Shown: positions 32,788 to 39,877 of the stretch, in pieces
Position numbering within the stretch: position 1 is the stretch's first letter
Layout: every line of letters begins with the position of its first letter
Assembly: GCA_029866005.1 (NCBI GenBank)
Contig: JARXAE010000031.1
Coordinates: forward strand, 1-58,713
Origin: Fimbriimonas sp.
GTDB lineage: Bacteria; Armatimonadota; Fimbriimonadia; Fimbriimonadales; Fimbriimonadaceae
DNA length: 58,713 bases
Direction: 5' to 3'
Notes under the pieces: generated by a model
Seen by the model: only the letters and a program-made list of their open reading frames with translations
Told to the model about the DNA's origin: nothing
Database searches by the model: none
Translations under genes and position numbers: made by a program

Positions 32788-33678
32788 GTGCTGATTGAGT
32801 ACGAAGACTTTGCCGATTTTTCTGACTGCGCAGTGTTTCGTCACGCGGGTCTGAAACTCATCGTAACGACCGCGATCGGTCCCAGAATCCTCTATTTTGG
32901 AAAGGAGGAGGGTCCCAACCACCTGCTTGCCCGCGAAGAACATCGAGGGCTAGTCGGTGGCGATTATCGTTCCTACGGCGGGCACCGGCTTTGGACTGGG
33001 CCAGAACAGAGACCAAAAACCTACTCCTCTGACTCCTTCCCCGTTGATGTCCTCGAGGAAGGTGAAGCCGTCCGCTTTCTTTCCCAGGTTGATGAGTTTC
33101 ACATCCAAAAGGTGATCCGAATCTCGTTCATTCCCACCGGATTTCGAATTGAACACCAACTCATCAACCACGGTGCATACGAAGTAGACCTCTGTCCCTG
33201 GGCAATCACCGTAATGGATCCTGGCGGGGAGTGCCTGGTGCCGATGCACCCGATTCGACCTCAGTCAGCTGGCCTTCTTCCAGCTCAGCCCGTCGTGCTG
33301 TGGGCATACGCTCGAATGGACGATCCTCGATACACATGGGGTGGCAGGGTGGCTCGTTTGAGATCGACCGAAGATCCGAACCCCACGAAATTCGGAACCT
33401 ATGTTGCCAGCGGTCTTGCCGCTTATTCTAACCATGGAGAGACCTTTATTAAACGGTTCTCTGTCCAGCCGCTTGGTGCCAGCCACATTGACATGGGATG
33501 CAATTTCGAGAGTTATACGAAGCAAGGAATGCTCGAAGTGGAGAGTCTAGGCGTTCTCCAAAGGGTCAATTCCGGGAACTCAACGTCGACTCACACTGAA
33601 GAGTGGTTCCTGCGCGATGGACACGTCCCTGAGGGCGACGAAGAGGCGGGCCGTTGGTTCGACGATCTAAAGCTTTAG
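32788..33678 (+). CDS. Aldose-epimerase-fold protein (DUF4380-like)
   Basis: 296 residues from a GTG. The opening (GLKLIVTTAIGPRILYFG), the GGHRLWTGPE turn and later beta-rich pattern match galactose-mutarotase-superfamily proteins of the DUF4380 type, which bind sugars. No signal peptide, so cytoplasmic. No catalytic assignment is possible from sequence alone. It overlaps the convergent serine hydrolase by 12 bases at the 3' end. Confidence 0.7.
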   Translation: MLIEYEDFADFSDCAVFRHAGLKLIVTTAIGPRILYFGKEEGPNHLLAREEHRGLVGGDYRSYGGHRLWTGPEQRPKTYSSDSFPVDVLEEGEAVRFLSQVDEFHIQKVIRISFIPTGFRIEHQLINHGAYEVDLCPWAITVMDPGGECLVPMHPIRPQSAGLLPAQPVVLWAYARMDDPRYTWGGRVARLRSTEDPNPTKFGTYVASGLAAYSNHGETFIKRFSVQPLGASHIDMGCNFESYTKQGMLEVESLGVLQRVNSGNSTSTHTEEWFLRDGHVPEGDEEAGRWFDDLKL

Positions 33679-34506
33679 CATCTCTGTAGCCAACCACTGA
33701 AGAAGCTTTGGATTATCGACTTGATACCGAGTGAAAATCGCGTAAACCTTCTTCTGTCCATCCATCTCCACGCATGCGACGTCGTGCCGGGTCGATGAAG
33801 TCCACCCGGCCTTCGACCACAGCTTTGCGCTAGCCGGGAGAACCTCTCCCAAAAATCCTTCGACCTGTCCATCTTTGCTGCCGGCCTTTCGGCTCAGGAG
33901 CGAAAGCATCTCTTCCGATCCCGAGAGCTTCCTCTGGATGATCATCGACATCATCTGGACACAAGAATCCGCCGTCAGGGAGTTGCGGTACTCGAAGTTC
34001 GGCCCATAGCCTTGCCGCTCACGCCCATAGGGTCCTTCATTCCACGTCTTTTGGTTGGCATTGATCCCCTTGATTCCCAGTGTCTGGAGCCACCGATTGA
34101 CCGCCTGCCGCTTTTCGCTCCACTCTTTAAGTTCAGAATCGGAAAGGGAAGGCCCACCCGTTGTGCCGGTGATTATGTCCAAAACCAAGCCGGTGGCATC
34201 ATTGTTGGACTCCTTGATCATGTCTACCAATGCTCGATCAAACTCCGCGTGACGAACGAGCTTCTTCTTGGCAACAAGTTCCTCGGCGTATGCCATGTAG
34301 AACATCTTGACAACGCTCGCCGGATACATCGGCAGACCGCCGTTGTGCGTCATCTCCGCACCCGTTTCCAGGTTTTTCCAGCTCATCGCAAAGTCAGTTG
34401 CCTTGAGTCCAGGAAATGCCGATTGCGCCCTATTTGCAATGTCCTGCATCACCGTAGGGATTCCAGATTGGGATGATATTGCCATCAGAGCGACCAGTGT
34501 GACCAC
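33667..34506 (-). CDS. Serine beta-lactamase-fold / PBP-like hydrolase
   Basis: 279 residues. The three active-site motifs are visible: SVVK (S64-K67), SNN (100-102) and KAG (231-233, in place of KTG). The Omega-loop Glu needed for class A deacylation is not apparent, so it may be a D,D-peptidase or other acyl-serine hydrolase rather than a resistance enzyme. The N-terminus MVTLVALMAISS is a very short hydrophobic stretch that would have to serve for export. GTG start supported by TAGAAT 6 bases upstream. Divergent from the next gene with only 23 bases between start codons. Confidence 0.82.
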   Translation of the reverse strand: MVTLVALMAISSQSGIPTVMQDIANRAQSAFPGLKATDFAMSWKNLETGAEMTHNGGLPMYPASVVKMFYMAYAEELVAKKKLVRHAEFDRALVDMIKESNNDATGLVLDIITGTTGGPSLSDSELKEWSEKRQAVNRWLQTLGIKGINANQKTWNEGPYGRERQGYGPNFEYRNSLTADSCVQMMSMIIQRKLSGSEEMLSLLSRKAGSKDGQVEGFLGEVLPASAKLWSKAGWTSSTRHDVACVEMDGQKKVYAIFTRYQVDNPKLLQWLATEMLKL

Positions 34507-34512
34507 ATCTAG

Positions 34513-34518
34513 ATTCTA
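34513..34518 (-). promoter_or_regulatory. -10 box TAGAAT of the leftward hydrolase gene
   Basis: TAGAAT ends 6 bases before GTG at 34506 and overlaps the opposing -10 box by two bases. Confidence 0.6.
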
Positions 34519-34522
34519 TACT
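34517..34522 (+). promoter_or_regulatory. -10 box TATACT of the rightward esterase gene
   Basis: TATACT ends 7 bases before GTG at 34530. The two opposing boxes overlap at 34517-34518. Confidence 0.6.
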
Positions 34523-34529
34523 GTTAGCC

Positions 34530-35117
34530 GTGTCGTTGATCTCAGTTTCTCGCGCAGCTTCCACTCCATCGAAAGGGAAGTTCTTCCTGATGCACGGCTT
34601 TGGAAGCGACGAGCAAGACATGTTTGGACTAGCGCAGGTACTCGATCCCGCGTATGAAATCATCTGCCTGCGCGCACCGATGGCGTACGGACCGGGCTTC
34701 GCCTGGTTCGAGATCGCCTTCACCCCGATGGGAATCGACCCAAACTTCGAACAGTTTTGGGATTCGGTAGAGAAGGTTGCCCAAATCATCCAAGAAGAGG
34801 AGCCAGACCGCACTGTCATCGGTGGCTTTAGCCAAGGAGCCATGATGACAGCTGGACTCATGGTCCGCCATCCCGAGAAGTTCGGCAAAGCCGTTTTGCT
34901 CAGTGGCCGAGGCGTCGGGCTTGAGCCTGGTGGGTTCCCCGGAAGAGCCTTTCAGGCTCACGGCACGTTCGACGATGTTATCCCATTCCGCGATGGAGTT
35001 CAGCTTCGGAGTGAGCTCAGCCCAATGGCTGAGCGGCACGAGTTTCATGCATACGAGATGGGACACTCGATTTGCCAAGAAGAGGTTGACGACTTAAACG
35101 CCTGGCTCAGAGGCTGA
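34530..35117 (+). CDS. Carboxylesterase/phospholipase-family alpha/beta hydrolase
   Basis: 195 residues. Nucleophile Ser101 in GGFSQGAM, Asp148 or 149 in GTFDDVIP, and His179 in MGHS. This is the compact carboxylesterase (YpfH/LysoPLA) layout with no lid. The oxyanion region is FLMHGFGSDEQDM. Cytoplasmic, as no signal is present; it probably hydrolyses small carboxyl esters. GTG start; its 3' end overlaps the convergent membrane-protein gene by 11 bases. Confidence 0.9.
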   Translation: MSLISVSRAASTPSKGKFFLMHGFGSDEQDMFGLAQVLDPAYEIICLRAPMAYGPGFAWFEIAFTPMGIDPNFEQFWDSVEKVAQIIQEEEPDRTVIGGFSQGAMMTAGLMVRHPEKFGKAVLLSGRGVGLEPGGFPGRAFQAHGTFDDVIPFRDGVQLRSELSPMAERHEFHAYEMGHSICQEEVDDLNAWLRG

Positions 35118-35478
35118 AATCCTGCTGATCAAAATAGGCTTTTACTTCGGGCTTCTGCCATTGAATCGCCAGCCATACGCAATATGGGGCTAATAAGCAT
35201 GTTGAAATTCCCAAACAAATGTTGATGAAGTGCGCCAGATGCGCCTTTGGAGTCTTTGGTTGCCGCATGAGAGAAAGGTTCGCAAGCCCAAACCCGACCC
35301 CCATCACAACCAAGGCAAAACACGCAAACTGGAAGACGCCCTGACTTTCGGTCGGAAGCACATCTGGATCAGCGGTCCGAGCCAAAGCCAACCCGGCGAA
35401 GCCAAGAAAGCACAAGAAACCGTACCAAGCTGTATTGATCCAGCAGTAGATTTGATAGTGTTTAAGCGTTTTCTCCAT
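35107..35478 (-). CDS. Small membrane protein of unknown function
   Basis: 123 residues with three likely membrane segments (about 13-33, 47-67, 84-105). It contains four Cys and is rich in aromatic residues. No family recognised and no -10 box near the ATG. The gene is convergent with the esterase and divergent from the Lys-rich protein gene. Confidence 0.6.
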   Translation of the reverse strand: MEKTLKHYQIYCWINTAWYGFLCFLGFAGLALARTADPDVLPTESQGVFQFACFALVVMGVGFGLANLSLMRQPKTPKAHLAHFINICLGISTCLLAPYCVWLAIQWQKPEVKAYFDQQDFSL

Positions 35479-35576
35479 AGCCCAATCCGCAACGTGTCTA
35501 CCTAGTAGAAATACTTACCCCCAAAAGGCCATTCGTTGTACAATGAGTTCGGAGTCTCCAAAGGAGAATAGCATTG

Positions 35577-36380
35577 ATGCTGAAAAAAATCTTATCTACA
35601 GTTGTTTTTGCCCTGGCCGTAGGCGCGGTCCACGCAAAGAAGGATGAAACGGTTAGCGTTTCCGGATTTGTCAAAGGGACCCCATCGGCCACGAAGTTCA
35701 CCGTCGGTTCCCGCAAAGGCGAGTTCACCGTCGACTGCAGCAACGCAAAAGTCACCTACGATGGTAAGCGTTTTGAGGTAGCAAAGCTTACAGGTGGTTC
35801 GCAAGTTTCGATCACCGGCAAGCTCTCTGGCAAGACGATCAAAGCGGAACAGGTTTTGATCGGCAACGTACGCGGAATGTCATCGACGAAAAAGGATGAC
35901 GTCAAGAAAGATGATTCGAAAAAGACAGAAACCAAGAAGTCTGAATCACGAACAACCAAGAAGGATGACGCCAAGAAGTCAGACGAAGTAGCCAAGACCG
36001 ACGAGAAGAAGGATTCCAAATCAACTCGTTCGACCAAGTCGAAGAAGGACGACACCAAGAAGACCGACGAGACAACTAAGGCAGACGAGAAAAAGGACTC
36101 CACTGCTAAGAAGTCAACGAAATCAAAGAAGGACGATGCCAAGAAGGCTGACGACACCGTAAAGACTGACGAAAAGAAGGATTCAAAGACCAAGAAGTCT
36201 ACGAAGTCGAAGAAGGACGACGAAAAGAAGACCGACGACACAGCAAAGACCGACGATCAGAAGAAAGCTGACGCAAAGAAAAAAGCTGACGCCAAAAAGA
36301 AGGCAGCTGCCAAGAAGAAAGCAGACGCTAAGAAGAAGGGTGACGAGAAGAAGGACCCTCCCAAGTCCGACGGAAACTAG
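35577..36380 (+). CDS. Secreted Lys-rich repeat protein with OB-fold-like N-terminal domain
   Basis: 267 residues. Signal peptide 1-20 (MLKKILSTVVFALAVGAVHA), a small beta-barrel-like domain (about 25-100, VSVSGFVKGTPSATKFTVGSRKG... AEQVLIGNV, similar to DUF5666), then a highly charged tail of over 150 residues. The tail has three near-perfect 28-residue repeats and ends in KADAKKK units like histone-H1-type tails. Strongly basic and exported, so it probably binds polyanions or DNA outside the cytoplasm (inference). AAGGAG 10 bases before the ATG; a TTG at 35574 is also possible. Followed by a terminator. Confidence 0.75.
   Translation: MLKKILSTVVFALAVGAVHAKKDETVSVSGFVKGTPSATKFTVGSRKGEFTVDCSNAKVTYDGKRFEVAKLTGGSQVSITGKLSGKTIKAEQVLIGNVRGMSSTKKDDVKKDDSKKTETKKSESRTTKKDDAKKSDEVAKTDEKKDSKSTRSTKSKKDDTKKTDETTKADEKKDSTAKKSTKSKKDDAKKADDTVKTDEKKDSKTKKSTKSKKDDEKKTDDTAKTDDQKKADAKKKADAKKKAAAKKKADAKKKGDEKKDPPKSDGN
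35982..36233 (+). repeat. Three tandem 84-bp repeats
   Basis: Units at 35982, 36066 and 36150 each encode 28 residues of the form DxxxKxDEKKDS....STKSKKDD.KKx, with only a few differences between copies. A partial fourth unit follows. Confidence 0.85.
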
Positions 36381-36398
36381 GCTTCGTCAAATCAACAT

Positions 36399-36433
36399 AA
36401 CCCCATTGCCAATTGGCAATGGGGTTGTTTGTT
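36399..36433 (+). terminator. Rho-independent terminator
   Basis: AACCCCATTGCC / GGCAATGGGGTT hairpin with a 4-base loop, followed by a T-rich GTTTGTTT tract, for the Lys-rich protein gene. On the other strand it lacks a T tract. Confidence 0.75.
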
Positions 36434-36759
36434 TACGGACCCTCCGGCGGAGTGACAACTTGAATGATCGCCTGTTTGGCAATGAGTTCCCCCACCACTC
36501 GAATCGGAACCACCCGCCTGATCTTGCCCTCAAAGTCCGGGCCAACAAAGTCGTCCCCCTCGGTGACGGCTGCAGAAGAGAGGAAAATTCCCGAATACAC
36601 GGGACGCTCCCAACTTGCGAACTCGCCGCTCGAGACATAAGTCTGTAGCTGTCCAATTGCGATCGGGCGAAGCAGGGCAATCTGCGTCAAGCTGTCAACG
36701 GTCACCGCCAAACCAAGCCGCTCAATCGCTCTGGCAACCCGATCAAGTCGTAGGCTCAA
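36433..36759 (-). CDS. Phage head-completion-like protein, last gene of a capsid module
   Basis: 108 residues, no clear family. The N-terminal helix (LDRVARAIERLG) followed by a beta-rich part (VVTPPEGP end) fits small head-tail connector proteins, but the call rests on position. TTG start overlapping the previous stop as TTGA, so tightly coupled within the module. Confidence 0.5.
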   Translation of the reverse strand: MSLRLDRVARAIERLGLAVTVDSLTQIALLRPIAIGQLQTYVSSGEFASWERPVYSGIFLSSAAVTEGDDFVGPDFEGKIRRVVPIRVVGELIAKQAIIQVVTPPEGP

Positions 36760-37148
36760 GATCGGTCACCGGAGCCGAACACCCGAGGATCTTCCGGAAT
36801 CATATCGCGCTTCATAAACGGCGTCAATCGAGCCCAGCCACGTTGGCGCATCGGCTCGGCAGTGCTGTAAGGCGATGGCTCGATGCGCACATCTCCAATG
36901 GTGATCACATCGGTCGCCCCTGGCTCACGCCGAAGGATTTCGACAAAGTCTGCCGCGACGAGATCAATCACGCCCTGCGAAATCGCCCAAGTCAATGACT
37001 CATCCGCCAGGGCAGAGGGCAAAAGCATGGCGTTGAAGGCCGCGGCAAACTCTCCGGCCAAGGAAGACGCTCTGGTCGAATAGGTTGTGCCTGTTCCGCT
37101 CAGTCCGCAACGCTCAAGGATGCGGTCGGTCGGAAGCGAGATCGGCAC
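36756..37148 (-). CDS. Phage head-completion-like protein
   Basis: 130 residues. Helical N-terminus (LPTDRILERCGL), a central helical part (SQGVIDLVAADFVEILRR) and a beta-rich stretch with IGDVRIEP. This resembles small gp36-like adaptor proteins following Mu-type capsid genes, but without a recognisable motif. GTG start overlapping the previous stop as TAGTG. Function by context only. Confidence 0.5.
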   Translation of the reverse strand: MPISLPTDRILERCGLSGTGTTYSTRASSLAGEFAAAFNAMLLPSALADESLTWAISQGVIDLVAADFVEILRREPGATDVITIGDVRIEPSPYSTAEPMRQRGWARLTPFMKRDMIPEDPRVFGSGDRS

Positions 37149-37393
37149 TACGCCACCCTCAGTTGGTTCATGATTCGGTGCAACAAGTTCGAGTTCTCCC
37201 CGACATTCGCCGATAGAGTCTCCAGCGTTGTCATCATCCGGTTCGTAAGCCCCTCGCGCTGCTCAAACGAGCGTTCCAGGAACTGGACAAACTGGTCGGC
37301 GAGCCGACGATGCTGCATCATTCCGAATCGAAGAAGACCCGCCATCGCAACGATGAACAGGCCGATAACACCAAGACTTTGAGTTTCCATCAT
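37148..37393 (-). CDS. Small membrane/coiled-coil protein in the capsid module
   Basis: 81 residues: one membrane segment (about 7-23), then a helix (LADQFVQFLERSFEQREGLTNRMMTTLETLSANVGENSN) likely to form a coiled coil. Coupled to the previous gene by ATGA. Holins and spanins can look like this, but such genes rarely sit inside a head module. Confidence 0.55.
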   Translation of the reverse strand: MMETQSLGVIGLFIVAMAGLLRFGMMQHRRLADQFVQFLERSFEQREGLTNRMMTTLETLSANVGENSNLLHRIMNQLRVA

Positions 37394-37632
37394 GTATTTC
37401 GTTTCATTGCCCTCCGCAAAAGGTCGAGGGCGACCTTGAGACGGTCAAACGCCTCCCGAAAGTCGTCGAACTGAGTCTGAATCTTCGAACGAGCCTCCGG
37501 CGCGACTTTGATGATCGCTTCATTCAGCTCATCGAACTTCTGCTTAGCGTTCTGGGTGGCGGCGAAGACGCCAATAATCGCGCCCAATGCTCCTCCCAGC
37601 CCCAGGCTCGATGCAATCTGAAGCCAGTCCAT
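37390..37632 (-). CDS. Small membrane/coiled-coil protein in the capsid module
   Basis: 80 residues from the ATG at 37632: a Gly-rich membrane segment (about 5-24) then a charged helix (AKQKFDELNEAIIKVAPEARSKIQTQFDDF). The ATG overlaps the capsid stop (TAATG), so it is coupled to the gpT-like gene. It resembles its neighbour in layout but not sequence. No function can be assigned. Confidence 0.55.
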   Translation of the reverse strand: MDWLQIASSLGLGGALGAIIGVFAATQNAKQKFDELNEAIIKVAPEARSKIQTQFDDFREAFDRLKVALDLLRRAMKRNT

Positions 37633-38537
37633 TAGAGTTCGATTCCTCCTCCGAAAACGGTCTGCCACATTCCCGGTCCCGCGTTGTAACGAGCCCGAAC
37701 CCCGTAGTAGAAGCGGTCATGAAAGAACGCCGAATCAGAGCCCTTCGCTGACTCCAGAGCCGCAAACTCAACCGGAACGTCGCTCCTCTGCTGGAGAATA
37801 ATTCCCCGCATCGGTCGAGTCGTGTCGAGCAGGTACCACGACTCATCGGTGATGAACGGAGACAGCACAACTTTGAGCATGCCGTTAAACACGTTCACTT
37901 GCCCCGAAGACTGAACGGTGCCCTTGCTGTCCACAAGTTCGATCGCCGTCCACATGTTTTGCGGACCAACCAACAGTACGTTCGGCGCAATGCCGAGGGG
38001 AACGCCTTCGTTGTCGCGCCGCGAGATCATAGCCGAGCACGCAGCTTTCAGGCCCGCCGAACCGAGCGCATCCGCGCTCACATTCGAAGCGGTACCCCCA
38101 GCTTCGGGATGGTCAGCCGCAAGGAGGTTTGCGCCATCGTAGCCAAGAATGCTTGTCCCATGAGTCAATGTGTTGACAACCAACTCGTGGCGGTGGTGCA
38201 CAACTCGGTTCGCAAGGTCCCGAATCCGTAAACGGATGAGGTCAAGCTGATCGTCTTCGAGCGCCTTCCGCTCGACGGCAATCGTCGATTCAAACACCTT
38301 ATCTTCGATGCTAATCGCCTGACTCGTCAGGCCCGTGGCGCGTCGCTCATCCACAAACTCGCGCATCGCCGGAGCGTTGTCTAGAAGTGGGTACCGCTGC
38401 ACGGGAAGAGTGGTCTGAATAACGGTGGCGAGCTGGGAGACGACGTCGGCTTGTTGCTCGTTTCGGTACGCGAGCGCAAACTCGGCTTTCAGACCAGGAA
38501 GAAGAAGATCGGGGATATCAGATTTGGTAAGTGCCAT
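37632..38537 (-). CDS. Mu gpT-like major capsid protein
   Basis: 301 residues. The pattern matches the Mu-like major head subunit gpT: ISIEDKVFESTIAVERKALEDD near residue 75-96 (Mu has NKTFEGTVGISRDDFEDD), GYDGANLLAADHPEAGG near 132-148 (Mu: YDGQNFFDKEHP), LVGPQNMW, and the C-terminal FYYGVRARYNAGPGMWQTVFGG. It would form the HK97-fold shell. Neighbours (protease upstream, decoration protein) are right for a phage head operon. Confidence 0.85.
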   Translation of the reverse strand: MALTKSDIPDLLLPGLKAEFALAYRNEQQADVVSQLATVIQTTLPVQRYPLLDNAPAMREFVDERRATGLTSQAISIEDKVFESTIAVERKALEDDQLDLIRLRIRDLANRVVHHRHELVVNTLTHGTSILGYDGANLLAADHPEAGGTASNVSADALGSAGLKAACSAMISRRDNEGVPLGIAPNVLLVGPQNMWTAIELVDSKGTVQSSGQVNVFNGMLKVVLSPFITDESWYLLDTTRPMRGIILQQRSDVPVEFAALESAKGSDSAFFHDRFYYGVRARYNAGPGMWQTVFGGGIEL

Positions 38538-38539
38538 GG

Positions 38540-38965
38540 TTACTTGGTGTGATTGTCGATTCGTATTCGGTATCCGCCGAGATTGTCGGAGGTTGATTCA
38601 GTGCCGACGATGGTGCCGATGATGTAGGCGTTCGTCAAGCCAGTTGCAACGTCTTGAACCTCGCCATCAAACTTCGCCCAAGCGTCCCCGCCGGTCTTGT
38701 TGACATTTGCCGAGGCGGTGGCGAAAACAAAAGTGCCCGACTTGGTCACGGTGATTCGCTTGGTCTCCGTCGTGGTGACGACTGACTCGTTCGCGACGCC
38801 GACGAACTTGAGATTCGCACTGGCGTGACTCATCGGAACAATGTTTCCAGATGCATTGACGCCGATAAGGGCACCTTTGAAGATGGTCGTGTTTGTACCG
38901 ACGTTGTAGCTCACAACGATTCCCGGCTTTTCGTATGTTTCGAATGGTTTGGTAAGTGCTGGCAT
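38540..38965 (-). CDS. Capsid decoration-like protein
   Basis: 141 residues, all-beta by pattern (IVVSYNVGTNTTIFKGALIGVNASGNIVPM, FVFATASANV), with Asn/Thr/Val richness typical of phage head-decoration (DUF2190-type) proteins. Position between protease and capsid genes, 2 bases from the capsid start, agrees. Exact family not certain. Confidence 0.65.
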   Translation of the reverse strand: MPALTKPFETYEKPGIVVSYNVGTNTTIFKGALIGVNASGNIVPMSHASANLKFVGVANESVVTTTETKRITVTKSGTFVFATASANVNKTGGDAWAKFDGEVQDVATGLTNAYIIGTIVGTESTSDNLGGYRIRIDNHTK

Positions 38966-38971
38966 GGTTTG

Positions 38972-39871
38972 TTAGCGCCGTTTGGCGATTTCTTTGAGGT
39001 CAACTCCAGGGAAGTGGCGGCGATAGAACGCCGACTCCTCGGGCAGAAGAAGGTTAAGGGCTGATTCGTGATCGGCGGCGGCCGGTGCCTGCTGGCTGAA
39101 GATGTTCGCTTTCGGGAGGTCTTCAAGGAGCTTGCCGACTAACTCCGCGACTGGCTGCCCGTCGATCTCGGCTTCACAAGCGAAGAGCAGCGCAGCAACC
39201 TTCGCCTGACGAGGCACAAGCTGCCCGCTATTCACCAGCTTCTCCACCCGATTTCCCGCTTCTTGCTTCCTACTTTCCGCTTGCGCTTGGTGAGCCAGCT
39301 TGGCGTAGTCAACGTCCGCAAAACCACTACTGAACAGCGGTCTGGTGTCGAAGAGGCGAGCCGACTCTACCCGGGGATTCCGGACGACACTCACTTCGCG
39401 AATATGCTCAAGATCGCGCTCAAGGCCTACGGAGAGGCTCTGTGCGCCACTTTTGATGAGTAACTGATCTGCCTCTCGGGTGAGGGCGATCAGACCAGAG
39501 AGGTTTGCACCGTCGGCATCAACCGCGATGAGGAAGCCTAGGTGAAGGGGCGAGTCGCCGTGCTCGATGAGGACGGGGACGGGAAGGTCGAAGTTGGCGG
39601 CAATGGCTTGCAGATTTTCTGTCGAGACGGAGACGCCCTTATCCGGATAATCCCCAGCCTCAAAGAGCTTGGCGCGCCGCTCGACCCAACTGGTGGGGTG
39701 AGTGAGGTACGCCGGAGCCTGGATTCCGTGGGTTCGAAACTCTGCCACCATAGCAAGGCGGGTTGCCTCGCTGACTTCGTTTCGTGTTCCTTGGTATCCC
39801 GGACCCGCAAGGGCAGCCCGCCGTAAGAGGTCGAGTCGCGCCTCGGCGACCGTTGTGTCGTTTGCGATCAT
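38972..39871 (-). CDS. Mu gpI-like prohead protease/scaffold
   Basis: 299 residues. The protease part has VLIEHGDSPLHLGFLIAV, with the catalytic-type His, then LLIKSGAQSLSVGLERDLEHIREVSVVRNPRVESARLF, where Ser and the VSxVRNP segment match the Mu I / prohead protease pattern. The C-terminal 110 residues are helical and charged, as expected for an attached scaffold. It would process the capsid during head assembly. ATG at 39871 is preferred; a GTG at 39877 lies inside the promoter. First gene of the module. Confidence 0.78.
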   Translation of the reverse strand: MIANDTTVAEARLDLLRRAALAGPGYQGTRNEVSEATRLAMVAEFRTHGIQAPAYLTHPTSWVERRAKLFEAGDYPDKGVSVSTENLQAIAANFDLPVPVLIEHGDSPLHLGFLIAVDADGANLSGLIALTREADQLLIKSGAQSLSVGLERDLEHIREVSVVRNPRVESARLFDTRPLFSSGFADVDYAKLAHQAQAESRKQEAGNRVEKLVNSGQLVPRQAKVAALLFACEAEIDGQPVAELVGKLLEDLPKANIFSQQAPAAADHESALNLLLPEESAFYRRHFPGVDLKEIAKRR

Positions 39872-39877
39872 AGTCAC

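Follow-up and report, generated by a model that had tools for sequence, protein, structure and literature searches.

Genes and features at the locus

The window (the whole stretch of DNA that was analysed, 58,713 nucleotides from a Fimbriimonas sp.) contains two divergently oriented genes, encoding a serine hydrolase and a carboxylesterase, whose GTG start codons are separated by only 23 bp. The genes and the features of the gap are listed here; G000 denotes the host genome, and the other G numbers denote the genomes with which it was compared.

33667-34506, minus strand: serine hydrolase of the Beta-lactamase2 family (PF13354), GTG at 34506; orthologues at 83% (G018) and 78% (G001)
34530-35117, plus strand: carboxylesterase/phospholipase (PF02230, Abhydrolase_2), GTG at 34530; orthologues at 75% (G001) and 69% (G018)
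34507-34529, no strand assigned: predicted bidirectional leaderless promoter, the 23-bp intergenic region, with the gap sequence ATCTAGATTCTATACTGTTAGCC; same length in G018
34511-34522, no strand assigned: invariant 12-bp core AGATTCTATACT; same in G000, G018 and G001
34513-34518, minus strand: predicted hydrolase -10 element TAGAAT, 6 nt from its GTG; identical in G000, G018 and G001, with a genome-wide TANNNT peak at spacing 6
34517-34522, plus strand: predicted esterase -10 element TATACT, 7 nt from its GTG; identical in the three genomes, with a genome-wide peak at spacing 7
34525-34527, plus strand: TAG within the esterase discriminator; retained in G018 and G001

The gap was read base by base. 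The minus-strand GTG finishes at 34506 and the plus-strand GTG starts at 34530, and an ORF check of hydrolase and esterase verified that each is the first ATG, GTG or TTG codon past an in-frame stop. The hexamers TAGAAT and TATACT overlap in the TA at 34517-34518 and, as this dinucleotide is self-complementary, it can serve as positions -12/-11 in both boxes. The original prediction had placed two boxes with two common bases at these positions, each 6-7 bases from its GTG, and proved exact to the base, with spacers of 6 (minus strand) and 7 (plus strand). Alternative overlapping hexamers are partly possible, e.g. the minus-strand TATAGA at 8 nt from the GTG. Reading by eye revealed no Shine-Dalgarno-like sequence within the 23 bp, and the bases that precede the starts (GTTAGCC-GTG on the esterase side and CTAGAT-GTG on the hydrolase side) leave the normal Shine-Dalgarno position without such a motif. 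A -35 element was also sought by reading the site and was not found; as the consensus promoter scanner requires a -35 hexamer, it missed the site at 34507-34529.

The N-terminus of the hydrolase is short and hydrophobic and resembles a minimal signal peptide, and NCBIfam did not yield a specific name for the hydrolase or the esterase. Beyond the esterase, a 123-aa minus-strand ORF (35107-35478) is convergent with it and the 3' ends of both overlap. Recognisable relatives of this ORF adjoin the esterase in G001, G018 and G003, and it is therefore probably a real gene. The plus-strand gene at 35574-36380 encodes a predicted protein with a hydrophobic N-terminal stretch followed by a long lysine/aspartate-rich low-complexity repeat (KKDDAKKTDE-like), for which no Pfam match was found. 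Between this gene and the minus-strand ORF 36433-36759, a 14-pair inverted repeat (ATAACCCCATTGCCAATTGGCAATGGGGTTGT, 36397-36428) looks like a two-way terminator bordering a phage-like block. Within 36756-39877, the minus-strand genes at 37632-38537, 38540-38965 and 38972-39877 have matches among phage families for head and packaging functions (the major head protein phrog_371, the virion structural protein phrog_1731 and the head maturation protease phrog_976), and a prophage thus appears to start soon past the conserved gene block.

Probable leaderless -10 elements in the host genome and the chance expectation

The statistics were obtained from 1.19 Mb of the 2.81-Mb host genome and, in addition, from 0.4 Mb of G018 and another 0.4 Mb of G014. 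Genes were predicted by hexamer coding potential with a home-made caller and TANNNT was then counted 5' of their starts; the resulting fractions are approximate, because at least one small gene that is conserved (35107-35478, minus strand) escaped this caller. In the host genome, TANNNT occurred at 9.0% for spacing 6 and 4.4% for spacing 7 against a background of 1.06% per position. The corresponding values at spacings 6 and 7 were 5.9% and 5.1% in G018 and 6.2% and 4.2% in G014, with a background per position of 1.0-1.1% across the three genomes. At the heads of divergent genes the motif reached 12% (spacing 6) and 9% (spacing 7), and Shine-Dalgarno-like tetramers amounted to 3% or less at each spacing. 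The aligned leaderless set has a consensus of about GTAAACT, and no -35 information was found in it. As TANNNT is enriched exactly 6-7 nt before starts and is not accompanied by a -35, leaderless -10-only promoters are very probably in use in the host genome. Leaderless genes in Actinobacteria and Deinococcus-Thermus follow the same pattern of an adjacent TANNNT -10 (PMC3160421, PMC12340547). A report of leaderless initiation in Fimbriimonas-type Armatimonadota was not found in the literature searched, for which lineage the present counts provide sequence evidence that it is common. Both genes at the locus have TANNNT approximately 6-7 nt 5' of the start codon, as leaderless genes do, and the claim that both are leaderless is supported, as a prediction, by this genome-wide peak and by the constraint on the core described below.

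The arrangement of overlapping boxes at 34507-34529 is beyond chance. Of random 22-24-mers drawn from host intergenic DNA, 0.24-0.49% match the arrangement with a shared TA and, over the start combinations of the 173 divergent pairs in 1.19 Mb, approximately 0.04 shared-TA pairs were expected and two were seen. Eleven of 302 divergent pairs from the three genomes have two-sided -10s at 6-8 nt in a gap of less than 70 bp, with 0-1 pairs at control spacings. Three of these 11 have the TA in common: the pair in the window, the orthologous pair of G018 and, unrelated to them, a pair at G000:C20:225973/225998. Under the class definition applied here, a bidirectional promoter has opposite-strand start sites 7-25 bp apart, and its hallmark of opposed -10 elements with common key positions was found at the site, in G018 and at this second locus. 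A strict search of the whole G000 genome, with ATG/GTG starts and 6-7-nt spacers only, gave 15 motif sites, two of which lie between two coding ORFs (the window pair and a metallophosphatase/GNAT pair). The raw counts of the strict motif were unremarkable at 6/7 spacing (five sites, control seven) and mildly high for 7/7 and 6/6 (five each, control one each). With such weak raw counts and just two of the 15 sites between coding ORFs, the motif by itself is no evidence.

The second pair (L224, G000:C20:225973-225998) consists of divergent, predicted leaderless genes for a metallophosphatase and a GNAT acetyltransferase, whose -10s again have a common TA. Its 24-bp gap and an 18-bp block, CTCAGTTTATACTAGCTA, are kept in G000, G018 and G001. 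The first of two adjacent ATGs at this pair was lost in G001, which identifies the second ATG, at 7 nt, as the start. Matches to the GNAT acetyltransferase in G017, G008 and G012 (L233, L237 and L238) contain one stop codon each within the aligned stretch.

Conservation of the gap in relatives

Fourfold-degenerate sites are saturated among G000, G018 and G001 (three-way identity 12%), and despite this AGATTCTATACT is identical in all three genomes. At a three-way identity of 0.12, the invariant run of 12 bases corresponds to p of approximately 1e-11 before correction for the choice of run. Judged from this alignment, the 12-bp core is under strong constraint, which also supports the view that the control region is contained essentially entirely in the 23 bases. 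The TAG of the esterase discriminator is present in just 5-6% of the genome's leaderless discriminators, and TTTAG is found 5' of the esterase orthologues of G002, G003 and G011, which have other neighbours or gaps.

Hydrolase and esterase are divergent in G018, G001, G009, G011, G014, G015 and G006, and other sequence, including an apparent acylphosphatase gene, lies between them in G008 and G017. Conservation of the gap had been proposed as a check, and its length is exactly 23 bp in G018, 34 bp in G001, 24 bp in G011 and 40 bp in G014 and G015; close relatives thus keep the arrangement, which relaxes further out. The longer gap of G001 looks like the result of an 11-bp tandem duplication, AGATTGTATCA-AGATTCTATACT. 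In the outer copy, a minus-strand TACAAT precedes the hydrolase GTG by 6 nt and a plus-strand TANNNT is lacking; the inner copy retains TATACT, 7 nt ahead of the esterase GTG. This split of the copies, with one box each for hydrolase and esterase, points to independent selection on each box. The 11-bp copy may have been gained in G001 or lost in the others, and the three genomes are compatible with either. In G011 the boxes are weaker (TACCCT/TACAAG) and the TA is again common, in the same place. The same gene pair in G014 and G015 lacks a good esterase TANNNT box, and the design is therefore not universal within the genus. Since some orthologous pairs have gaps of 34 and 40 bp, an essential role of the overlap as such was rejected.

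A probable bidirectional promoter for two apparently leaderless genes

Most probably, the 23 bp form a minimal bidirectional promoter that would produce two leaderless mRNAs in largely independent directions. A sigma factor, which we infer to be the housekeeping one, would recognise the pseudo-palindromic ANNNTANNNT, whose TA would act in both -10 elements simultaneously, and polymerase would bind in either of two orientations, one at a time. Transcription is predicted to begin at or beside the G of the respective GTG, and both mRNAs would be translated without a Shine-Dalgarno sequence. As the -12/-11 positions are common to both strands and the optimal distance from box to start is 7 bp, simple arithmetic gives start sites 23 bp apart, and the model accordingly allows 23-24 bp. 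Leaderless mRNAs have no 5' UTR, so that the promoter can fill the whole gap. With initiation at ordinary rates, transcription in one direction would be mostly independent of that in the other, and steric interference would be expected only when one of them is strongly active.

The original prediction went further and proposed that hydrolase and esterase are expressed in mutual exclusion on single DNA molecules. Its physical part stands, since it is near certain that two polymerases cannot occupy the site together. Most divergent promoters that are closer than the polymerase footprint likewise admit one polymerase only, and the two-base overlap adds little to this steric exclusion. Steric exclusion is not an expression switch, and mutually exclusive expression of the two genes is not supported by the present analysis. 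That the overlap, with the same anatomy, was selected for such exclusivity is very unlikely; the inability of opposed polymerases to bind together and the retention of both the overlapped core and the exact gap in G000 and G018 would fit it, but each blocking event should last seconds and be averaged over mRNA and protein lifetimes, overlap is absent or relaxed in the orthologous pairs with longer gaps, and there is no sign that hydrolase and esterase act against each other. Moreover, five E. coli bidirectional promoters with starts 10-23 bp apart exhibit no appreciable competition at basal activity; weakening of one direction left the other unaffected, and the opposite direction was repressed only upon strong activation of one direction (PMC12825309).

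The conserved core could also be mainly a transcription-factor operator for both genes, its likeness to -10 elements being secondary, and we rate this slightly lower still. The core is partly symmetric and exceeds the informative positions of two hexamers, the AG at 34511-34512 being invariant too, but the positions that carry its information coincide exactly with those of two -10 elements, set at the leaderless spacing enriched throughout the genome. In addition, neither gene has another evident promoter, and the core of the metallophosphatase/GNAT pair differs, having only the ANNNTANNNT frame in common with the window core. Just as improbable is a single real promoter whose symmetry created the second box as a by-product, the other gene being read from elsewhere (e.g. 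from within its neighbour): -10 symmetry easily yields spurious opposed boxes, and G001 keeps the old minus-strand box despite the new hydrolase box, so that the old box may be conserved for the sake of the other direction, but both boxes are optimally spaced for leaderless initiation with respect to their own start codons, and G001 preserves this spacing on either side despite its 11-bp insertion.

The bidirectional leaderless promoter thus remains the preferred reading. With a bidirectional promoter and leaderless genes coinciding at this site, the symmetry of the -10 elements would by itself determine how far apart the two coding sequences lie. The site also offers a natural and conserved object of very small size on which polymerase competition could be tested (23 bp, no -35 and predicted to lack 5' UTRs). 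A more far-reaching idea, which we consider unlikely, is that promoter compaction reaches its limit in Fimbriimonas-type bacteria. A 23-24-bp pseudo-palindrome would then provide the full transcription and translation control for two protein-coding genes, and selection would maintain the shared TA at some loci because polymerase direction sets the product ratio.

The bidirectional promoters described by Warman, Grainger and colleagues in E. coli (PMC12825309) and on Salmonella plasmids (PMC10268837) have opposed -10s with common bases, as is the case here. Common start-site spacings in E. coli are 18, 10 and 23 bp, one of which fits the spacing predicted here, and 24% of the E. coli bidirectional promoters lie between divergent genes and yield two mRNAs (PMC12825309). 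In contrast to these systems, both mRNAs are here predicted to be leaderless, the promoter is the entire intergenic region, the gap length follows the start-site spacing, no -35 is visible and the starts are predicted from sequence. Leaderless TANNNT genes of Deinococcus-Thermus and Actinobacteria (PMC3160421, PMC12340547) resemble the two genes in that the first T of the box lies approximately 12 bp before the start, a Shine-Dalgarno sequence is absent and a -35 is optional; they are single-direction, whereas the present genes are divergent and the consensus is nearer to GTAAACT. A text search did not find 'divergent' or 'bidirectional' in PMC12340547, nor 'divergent' or 'Armatimonadetes' in PMC3160421. 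In Mycobacterium tuberculosis, Rv1130 (prpD) and Rv1129c form a divergent pair in which both transcripts begin at the start codons, as predicted here; according to the available passages of that study, which do not state a -10 overlap, the two genes are upregulated together without alternation (PMC3898074), which also speaks against mutually exclusive expression. The divergent C-R/M promoters of the EcoRV system have overlapping core promoters, cannot be occupied by polymerase simultaneously and were proposed to couple two genes, but they belong to a restriction system regulated by a C protein and their transcripts are not leaderless (PMC5333194). The site is well explained if leaderless genes and a bidirectional promoter, both of them known kinds, are combined in it, and its mechanism is not new; on the best reading, its compactness and conservation are unusual and the mechanism is ordinary.
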